NCBI GenBank assembly: GCA_945883435.1
Contig: CAMCXK010000009.1
Span: 1 to 55,225 of the forward strand
From: Chthoniobacter flavus
GTDB lineage: Bacteria > Verrucomicrobiota > Verrucomicrobiia > Chthoniobacterales > Terrimicrobiaceae
Reading direction: 5' to 3'
Length of the DNA stretch: 55,225 bases
The position numbers and the translations under genes are program-made. Each line of letters begins with the position of its first letter. The first letter of the stretch is position 1. Of the stretch, positions 25,343 through 28,246 are shown piece after piece. The notes beneath the pieces were generated by a model. That model did no database searches, had not been told where the DNA came from, and saw only the letters and a program-made list of their open reading frames with translations.

Positions 25343-27513
25343 TCAAGCCGCAAACGCCCGTCGCTCCCGACCCCTCCCGGCGCGCTCCCCCGCCGCTTCG
25401 ACAGGATTTGGTGGAGCGCCACCAACGGCACCTGGGGAGGGCCTACCATATCCTGAAAAACCCGCTCAGCCTGGCCTACTTTCGTCTCCCGGCCCCTCAT
25501 CTCGAGGCCGCCCGTCGCTTCGACGGCACCACGCCACTGGCGCTCCTCCTCCCGGTCCTTCGCTCCTCCTCGCGCTATTGGCGGTCGCTTCCGGAACCGG
25601 CGGCTCTGGAAGAACTCTCGGCCCTTGCCAACCAGCTTGCGGCTGCGGGTCTTCTTCGGGTTCCCGCTCCCGGTGCGGAGGAGCGGGCCCGCCGTCTTCG
25701 CGAGTCCAAAAAAAACCACCGATTGGAAACGTGGGTTGGTCATGCCGTGTATTTCAAAAAGTCACTTTTCGATCCGGACGACCTGCTGAACCGCATCACT
25801 CCGGCTTTTGCTTGGATTTTCACCCCGGCTTGCCTGCTTCTGCTCGCCGGGTGTGTTCTCTTCACCCTGTGGGTCGTCTTGGGGCACGCGGACCGCTTGC
25901 ACGCATCGAGTGCGAATTTTTTCACCCTTCAAAATCTCATTTCCACCTGGCTGCTGTTCATTGGGGTGAAGGTGGTGCACGAGTTTGGCCACGCCATCAC
26001 CTGCAAGCGCTTCGGGGGAGAGGTTCACGAAATGGGGTTCATGTTCATCCTTTTCACCCCTTACCTCTTTTGCAACGTGAGCGACTCGTGGTTGGCCGAA
26101 AAACGCCAGCGCATTGCCGTGACCGCAGCGGGCATGCTGGTGGAAATCCTCCTTGCCTGCATCGCCGCCTGGGGATGGTTTGCGACCCAGCCCGGACTCC
26201 TTCACCAACTGTGCTTCAACACCATGGTCCTCTGCAGCGTCTCGACCGTGTTGTTCAATGGAAATCCCCTCATGAAATTCGACGGCTATTACATTTTGAC
26301 CGATCTTTTGGAAATTCCGAACCTGCGCGCGAAAAGCAATGCCTGGGTCACCGCCTGGGCCCAGCGCCACCTTCTCGGCATCGCTCCCAAGACCGCGCTG
26401 CCAGACACCCGCGAGATCGGGCCGGTTTTCGGAGTTTATGCCGTGGCGGCCTATCTTTACGGGTGGTTCCTGACATTTGCCATCGCGGGGCAAATCTTTG
26501 ATATCCTCAAGCCTCATGGCCTGGAAATCCTCAGCCGCACCTACGTCGGGTTGTTTCTTTTTGTCTCGCTCGGCTTGCCGTTTCTGCGGTTGCTCCGCAG
26601 TGTGAAGTCTTCCGGTGCCTCCATTCTCACCCCCAGGGCGCGTTGGATCGCTCTCTCGGCCCTAGGTTGCACCGGTGTTCTGTTTCTGATCCCGTTCACC
26701 GAGCGGGTGACCCGGTCCGCAGTGCTGGAACACCCCGCCGTCCATCACCTCTCGCCGCCGATTCCCGCGACGCTCACCGCCATTCTGGCCACCGAGGGAC
26801 AAGTGGTAAAAAAAGGCGATGTGCTCGCCTCCATGGAAAGCCGCCCGCTGGAGGCACGGCTCGCCGACTTGGCGTTTCAACGCGAGGCCGCCCATGTCCG
26901 CCTGCGCGCCGCCATCGCCTCCGGCACGGAAGAAGCCCGTCTTCTGGTCCCGGTCCAGGAAAAACACCTCCGTGAAATCGAGGAGGAGCTTCATGCGTTG
27001 GAAGCCCGCCGGGCCGCTTTGCAGCTTCTCGCCCCCTCGGATGGCATCGTGAGAACCCCGCGAACCTACGACCTGGTCGGCCGGGTCTTTTCTCCGGGCC
27101 AAGCCGTTCTTTCCCTGGGCGCCCTGCCCGGCGACCGCGTTCTTATCCCTTTGGACGAGAAGCAGGCCAAGCGGGTTCATGCCGGCCAAGAGGTGGAATT
27201 CTACTGGGACGCCCTGCCTCATACGACCGGAAGAGGGCGCATTGCCATCGTTCACCCCGGCCCGAGCGAATACCTTCCCGCGCCGGGACTGGCCAATCTT
27301 TTTGGAGGCGATGTTCCTGCGGAGATCGATCCCGCCACCGGTCAGCCCCGTCCCTCGATTCCCGTTTACGAAGCTGAAGCCGTTCTTGATGAGCCCTTGG
27401 CGCTTCGTCCGCAGGCCACCGGTCGCGCCTGCATCACCACCGCCCGATCCACCCTCGGATCGGCTCTCAAAGATCGAATCCTCGATTTGCTGAATCCCGA
27501 CTGGCGTCTCTGA
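25339..27513 (+). CDS. M50 site-2-protease/HlyD fusion protein
   Basis: A 724-residue multi-span membrane protein. The N-terminal ~130 residues are soluble and helical (HILKNPLSLAYFRLP and following), perhaps a PqqD-like winged helix. The M50 core has the zinc motif HEFGH at residues 214-218 and the third-ligand motif NPLMKFDGYY with Asp315, so the protease looks intact. After several helices, a C-terminal periplasmic part from about 460 has two lipoyl half-motifs around a coiled coil (ILATEGQVVKKGD and LAPSDGIVRTP), as in HlyD adaptors. The start is GTG at 25339, overlapping the upstream stop. It probably acts with the two preceding adaptors; substrate unknown. Confidence 0.8.
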   Translation: MIKPQTPVAPDPSRRAPPPLRQDLVERHQRHLGRAYHILKNPLSLAYFRLPAPHLEAARRFDGTTPLALLLPVLRSSSRYWRSLPEPAALEELSALANQLAAAGLLRVPAPGAEERARRLRESKKNHRLETWVGHAVYFKKSLFDPDDLLNRITPAFAWIFTPACLLLLAGCVLFTLWVVLGHADRLHASSANFFTLQNLISTWLLFIGVKVVHEFGHAITCKRFGGEVHEMGFMFILFTPYLFCNVSDSWLAEKRQRIAVTAAGMLVEILLACIAAWGWFATQPGLLHQLCFNTMVLCSVSTVLFNGNPLMKFDGYYILTDLLEIPNLRAKSNAWVTAWAQRHLLGIAPKTALPDTREIGPVFGVYAVAAYLYGWFLTFAIAGQIFDILKPHGLEILSRTYVGLFLFVSLGLPFLRLLRSVKSSGASILTPRARWIALSALGCTGVLFLIPFTERVTRSAVLEHPAVHHLSPPIPATLTAILATEGQVVKKGDVLASMESRPLEARLADLAFQREAAHVRLRAAIASGTEEARLLVPVQEKHLREIEEELHALEARRAALQLLAPSDGIVRTPRTYDLVGRVFSPGQAVLSLGALPGDRVLIPLDEKQAKRVHAGQEVEFYWDALPHTTGRGRIAIVHPGPSEYLPAPGLANLFGGDVPAEIDPATGQPRPSIPVYEAEAVLDEPLALRPQATGRACITTARSTLGSALKDRILDLLNPDWRL

Positions 27514-27580
27514 GCCGCCTGTTTGGAACCATCCGCCGAACCTCGCTGGCCGCATGACCCCGTCGCAAATCCGGGCAGCC

Positions 27581-27789
27581 ATGCGAATGGTTCTTCACGG
27601 AATTTCGTGGGTAAAACTGAAGCGCAAAGCGCTTGAAGGAGTAAAACAGCCAATGATTGATTCGCGACGCGATCCCATACCAACTTGCTTGCGTGGGAGT
27701 TGTGTCGCAGGGAGATCATTGGCACCCCGCCCCCAAAGGGGGATGAATTGGGCTTCCACCCACAAAAATCCACGAAGAACCATGCGAAT
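27581..27789. mobile_element. MITE-like element with imperfect terminal inverted repeats and 8-bp target duplication
   Basis: A 193-bp stretch (27589-27781) is bounded by inverted repeats. The left end begins GGTTCTTCACGGAATTTCGT and the reverse complement of the right end begins GGTTCTTCGTGGATTTTTGT; the first 24 positions match at 20. The sequence ATGCGAAT stands directly outside both ends (27581-27588 and 27782-27789) as a perfect direct repeat, the expected target-site duplication. No credible gene lies inside, so it is non-autonomous. Two internal hairpins are present (AAGCGC/GCGCTT at 27620-27634 and CCCCC/GGGGG at 27730-27742). GG-starting ends and 8-bp duplications recall ISL3-type elements, which is only a suggestion. 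Confidence 0.85.
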
Positions 27790-27866: not shown

Positions 27867-27901
27867 AAAAAAAGGCAGAACCAAGAGGTTCTGCCTTTTT
27901 T
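27867..27901 (-). terminator. Rho-independent terminator of the HU-like gene
   Basis: A perfect 9-bp stem GGCAGAACC/GGTTCTGCC (27874-27895) with a 4-base loop is flanked by an A-run on its left and a T-run on its right. It can terminate transcripts in either direction. It lies 25 bases beyond the stop of the minus-strand HU-like gene. Confidence 0.9.
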
Positions 27902-27925: not shown

Positions 27926-28246
27926 TCAGGCAACCGACTTGCTGCGCAACTCCTCCGTGCGCTGCAGAACACGCTGGCGCATGATCTTGCCCGAGGAAAA
28001 TTTTACGATCGCGCGGGGAGGGATTTCCACCTCGTCTTGTGGACGTTTCGGATTGCGCCCCACACGTTTCTTGGTCAGACGCACTTCGAAAACGCCGAAG
28101 TTGCGAAGTTCCACATTCTTTCCGGTGGCAAGGCCGTCCGTGATGCCCTCCAACGTGAGTTGGATGACGTCGAACACCTCTTGTTGGGTGAGACCGGTTT
28201 TTTTGCTGATGTCGATCACAAGATCGCGCTTGGTAAGGTTTGCCAT
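27926..28246 (-). CDS. HU/IHF-family DNA-binding protein
   Basis: A 106-residue nucleoid protein. The N-terminal helical part (MANLTKRDLVIDISKKTGL, then VFDVIQLTLEGI) and the beta-arm region with GRNPKRPQDEVEIPPRAIV, whose Asn-Pro marks the intercalating tip, are typical. The arm sequence and the length over 95 residues are closer to IHF-alpha-like proteins than to HU, but a single subunit type cannot be decided. It bends DNA and could assist sigma54 activation, since rpoN lies directly upstream on the same strand (83-base gap). Confidence 0.93.
   Translation of the reverse strand: MANLTKRDLVIDISKKTGLTQQEVFDVIQLTLEGITDGLATGKNVELRNFGVFEVRLTKKRVGRNPKRPQDEVEIPPRAIVKFSSGKIMRQRVLQRTEELRSKSVA

Follow-up and report, generated by a model that had tools for sequence, protein, structure and literature searches.

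A 193-bp non-coding element, very probably an ISL3-type MITE, between two convergent genes of Chthoniobacter flavus

A short intergenic segment in Chthoniobacter flavus, bounded by inverted ends and by an exact repeat of eight bases, raises the question of what kind of element it is and which transposase placed it there. The segment lies in the window analyzed here, a stretch of 55,225 nucleotides that corresponds to contig C9 of a 2.84-Mb draft genome (126 contigs, 97.6% complete). The first-pass annotation of this DNA had described a 193-bp segment with inverted ends matching at 20 of 24 positions and an exact 8-bp duplication, and a direct reading of the sequence showed this description to be correct to the base. 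The octamer ATGCGAAT is present without mismatch at both 27581-27588 and 27782-27789, and the segment between the two copies, 27589-27781, is 193 bp long. The left end reads GGTTCTTCACGGAATTTCGTGGGT and the opposite end, on the complement, reads GGTTCTTCGTGGATTTTTGTGGGT; 20 of the 24 positions are identical and both ends begin GGTTCTTC, with GG as the first two bases. When the 55-kb window was scanned for inverted ends that match at 18 or more of 24 positions and lie between perfect 8-bp repeats, 27581-27789 was the sole locus returned, and the combination appeared in none of 20 base-shuffled windows. The longest stop-free stretch within the element is 64 codons and there is no transposase gene, which agrees with the earlier description of the segment as non-coding. 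Its placement between the M50/HlyD and HU genes was likewise confirmed, the neighbors being the convergent 3′ ends of M50/HlyD (ending at 27513, plus strand) and HU (ending at 27926, minus strand). The features of the locus are as follows.

27547-27588, and a few more bases past 27789, plus strand: target, a 3′-terminal remnant of a Fic-family gene (homology to G011:C131 and G013:C82)
27581-27588, no strand: left copy of the target duplication, ATGCGAAT (direct reading; single-copy counterpart in relatives, L109/L106)
27589-27781, plus strand: the element, very probably a non-autonomous, non-coding MITE of 193 bp (sequence, ends, copies, longest stop-free stretch 64 codons)
27589-27612, plus strand: left terminal inverted repeat (96% identity to ISL3 ends in two sister genomes over the first 24-25 bp)
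27649-27723, plus strand: internal imperfect hairpin with about 31 predicted base pairs (folding; no covariation support from the diverged copy)
27758-27781, minus strand: right terminal inverted repeat (direct reading)
27782-27789, no strand: right copy of the target duplication, ATGCGAAT (direct reading)

Copies of the element in its own genome were counted by sequence search, which gave a total of three, the window copy included. One copy, on contig C25 of the same genome (G000:C25:28772-28964, minus strand), matches the full 193 bp at 99% identity; the other, at 76% identity and with decayed ends, is on the same contig (15740-15934, plus strand). The first-pass annotation had named further copies with different 8-bp duplications as confirming evidence. 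The copies themselves were found, but neither has a recognizable duplication; the flanks of the 99% copy read AAATCGA and TATGAAAG, and a later rearrangement, or an assembly mis-joined at the repeat, would explain the missing duplication there. A search for an empty site of the 99% copy found no congener aligning over both flanks, and no match to the element was found among 72,556 plasmid records. Contig C25 contains a stretch of lower G+C content, about 41-49% as against about 60% in the surroundings, with glycosyltransferase-, flippase-, and methyltransferase-like genes, as named from their translations alone. A short palindromic dispersed repeat, GGTCATAGACCGCCGCTACA, occurs on the same contig (L002 1934-1953 and 2761-2780). 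This repeat is found again in the own genome and in several congeners, and the window contains no copy of it.

A search of the 16 genomes of the genus identified only two others with a match, G008 and G011, and in both the match covers only the first 24-25 bp of the element and lies directly after the C-terminus of an ISL3 transposase. In G011, an uncultured Spartobacteria MAG, the matching end (G011:C119, CALFPA010000119.1) comes after the stop codon of a gene whose 438-aa product is recognized by PF01610 (Pfam DDE_Tnp_ISL3, E=1.8e-73) and scores over the cut-off of the NCBIfam model transpos_ISL3 (NF033550). The complete element there (L023 2494-3689) is 1,196 bp long, has the ends GGTTCTTCACGGAATTTTGTGG and GGTTCTTCACGGAATTTCATGG with inverted repeats identical at 20 of 22 positions, is flanked by the exact 8-bp duplication CTCGAAAA, and shares the first 24 bp of the window element almost exactly. 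Judging from the split reading frame, it appears to lie inside an IS5-like transposase gene, one IS within another. In G008 (JAPLTI010000329.1, a Verrucomicrobia MAG), the matching end, located at the edge of a contig, adjoins the C-terminus of a transposase of the same type. This genome also has a second ISL3 element, 1,317 bp long, with inverted repeats identical at 22 of 22 positions and the 8-bp duplication AGAAAAGA. In G001, GGTTCTTCAAGGAATTTCATGG occurs close to an ISL3 transposase gene. A full-length IS sharing the ends, which the first-pass annotation had named as confirming evidence, is therefore present in both G011 and G008, and that annotation's ISL3 assignment is confirmed by ends that are common to ISL3 elements with 8-bp duplications.

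The G011 element resembles the window element in the first 24 bp of its ends and in its 8-bp duplication, and differs from it in length and content, since the window element has 193 bp and no transposase. Ends of this type would also be expected if a full-length ISL3 element had decayed at this very site by internal deletion, and the segment were its remains and not a MITE that had moved as such. We consider this very improbable, because the 99% identical copy of 193 bp at another locus with different flanks argues that the short form itself multiplied. In addition, the genus search found no similarity between the interior of the window element and the IS interior, and because the interiors do not match, derivation from the exact G011 IS by internal deletion is left unsupported.

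The two flanks were joined without the element and used as a query, which matched G011:C131 at 91% over 45 bp that end shortly beyond the octamer, and G013:C82 at 80% over 51 bp. In both relatives the homologous sequence is the C-terminal end of an intact Fic-family gene (Pfam Fic), and these genes (L109/L106) carry a single octamer, ATGCCAAT or ATGCAAAT, in place of the two that enclose the insert in the window. Because the relatives have the intact end with a single octamer, we interpret the window sequence as the remnant of a Fic gene end interrupted by the element. On the right of the octamer the homology extends for just 3-10 bases, and the Fic genes of the relatives do not adjoin M50 or HU genes; the site is therefore a homologous and not an allelic empty site. 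Thus, the empty site that the first-pass annotation had called decisive was found in the form of a single octamer in two sister genomes, but in a homologue that is not syntenic and is not the same locus.

The element also has a pronounced secondary structure, as it folds far better than dinucleotide shuffles on both strands, with z about -6.9. Together with the location between convergent genes, this could point to a structured RNA gene or a regulatory hairpin, for example a double-ended terminator for M50/HlyD and HU, that is only transposon-like. Several observations leave this reading with hardly any probability. The sequence is copied at two other loci and, IS-like ends excepted, is absent from the 15 other genomes of the genus; an Rfam search found no family within the element; and the diverged 76% copy folds no better than shuffles, with a both-sided, pair-keeping change in only 2 of 72 pairs. 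Because the diverged copy loses the fold and shows few compensating changes, there is no sign of a selected transcript, and an RNA gene was rejected as a candidate on the missing Rfam match and the lost fold. Moreover, the interval is already served by a separate terminator-like hairpin. Nested palindromes are usual in MITEs. The separate hairpin, at window positions 27868-27901 between the convergent genes, is a perfect 15-bp hairpin, AAAAAAGGCAGAACC...GGTTCTGCCTTTTTT, and is likely a two-way terminator for them.

Outside the own genome, no full-length relative of the element was found in 26 genomes of the family, 213 of the order, and 388 of the phylum, which gave end-length matches only. 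A wider scan for exact GGTTCTTCnnGGAnTTTnnTGGGT across 84,980 species genomes returned 58 loci, mostly in Planctomycetes and Verrucomicrobia, and also in Chlorobi and a few others. At some of these loci the ends enclose an ISL3 transposase with about 48-50% identity to that of G011; a Pirellulaceae MAG has a 1,309-bp ISL3 element with the duplication AAAAGAAA, and Spartobacteria AMD-G4 encodes an ISL3 transposase 85% identical to the G011 protein. At other loci the ends bound short non-coding elements flanked by exact 8-bp duplications, in Chlorobaculum thiosulfatiphilum (224 bp), a Limisphaerales MAG (224 bp), and a Planctomycetota MAG (240 and 154 bp). The filling of the C. thiosulfatiphilum element occurs once in that genome, but its ends are repeated at many positions, several of which coincide with contig edges, and the genome also contains fragments of ISL3 transposases. 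In one Planctomycetota MAG, the elements at L029 1357-1596 and L040 3534-3687 share their ends and parts of the interior, differ in length by 86 bp, and contain nested CCCCTCTTGA-type hairpins.

The 24-bp end is thus fused to ISL3 transposase genes both in congeners and in other phyla, which argues against mobilization by a different DDE family. Such a family would be compatible with the octamer, as 8-bp duplications are made by several IS families, and with the lack of an ISL3 transposase in the own genome; given the fused ends, we regard it as highly unlikely. Compared pairwise with the window element, the short elements have only about 24-34 terminal bp in common, and their interiors are unrelated between most genomes. 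A better fold than shuffles was obtained for 11 of 13 compared sequences (z -3.6 to -16.9), the exceptions being L024 and the decayed copy on C25. It is conceivable, if rather doubtful, that in Planctomycetes, Verrucomicrobia, and Chlorobi alike one ISL3 end type, GGTTCTTCnnGGAnTTTnnTGGGT, bounds many short elements that arose independently, with interiors that are mostly unrelated and mostly strongly self-complementary. If this were true, ISL3 transposases would repeatedly make or favor foldback fillings, the window element being one.

Taken together, we are highly confident that 27589-27781 is an ISL3-type MITE, with ISL3 transposase-recognition ends around a short, non-coding, self-complementary filling. 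It is smaller than about 500 bp, lacks a transposase gene, has inverted repeats and a target duplication, and occurs in more than one copy at unrelated sites; an autonomous partner with the same ends is available in the sister genomes and was not found in the own draft. As for the derivation from ISL3, the element has GG-starting ends in common with an ISL3-transposase-coding element as well as an 8-bp duplication. A profile search of the own 97.6%-complete draft with PF01610 found no ISL3 transposase, while control genomes were positive; the genome is a draft of 126 contigs and a collapsed repeat could therefore be missing. Because none was found in the draft, we infer mobilization in trans by an ISL3 transposase of the same end class. 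An ISL3-family DDE transposase, supplied in trans, would bind both ends, mobilize the element, and ligate it into the target at a staggered cut, and gap repair of that cut would produce the 8-bp duplication ATGCGAAT; this catalytic route is likewise proposed. The original interpretation of an insertion by a DDE-type transposase is supported by the ends, the duplication, the copies, the matching ISL3 elements, and the single-copy target in relatives.

ISL3-type MITEs have already been described, and the window element adds a further host to this known kind. In Microcystis aeruginosa PCC 7806, an ISL3-linked MITE of 187 bp with a stem-loop, GGCTCTTCG ends, and 8-bp duplications is present in 31-33 identical copies, new insertions have been observed, and ISL3 elements have the same ends (PMC11448079). 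The window element is likewise short and non-coding, with a stem-loop, imperfect inverted ends, 8-bp duplications, and matching ISL3 elements; in contrast, it has three copies and its own draft yielded no ISL3 transposase, and the sequence likeness seen is that of the end type. In Methanosarcina acetivorans, an ISL3 MITE of 179 bp linked to ISMac21 is present in six copies (PMC3852290). It is similarly short, non-autonomous, and ISL3-linked, although its host is archaeal and the likeness is one of description, not letter by letter. Among the papers searched, none linked ISL3, Verrucomicrobia, and inverted repeats, and the matches listed for the string GGTTCTTC included no pertinent paper. Sequence alone sufficed to assign this small mobile element to a family and to a likely source, with full-length partners identifiable in the genus. 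Furthermore, short non-coding elements from several phyla carry these transposon ends, which provide an annotation handle for unnamed repeats of Planctomycetes and Verrucomicrobia.
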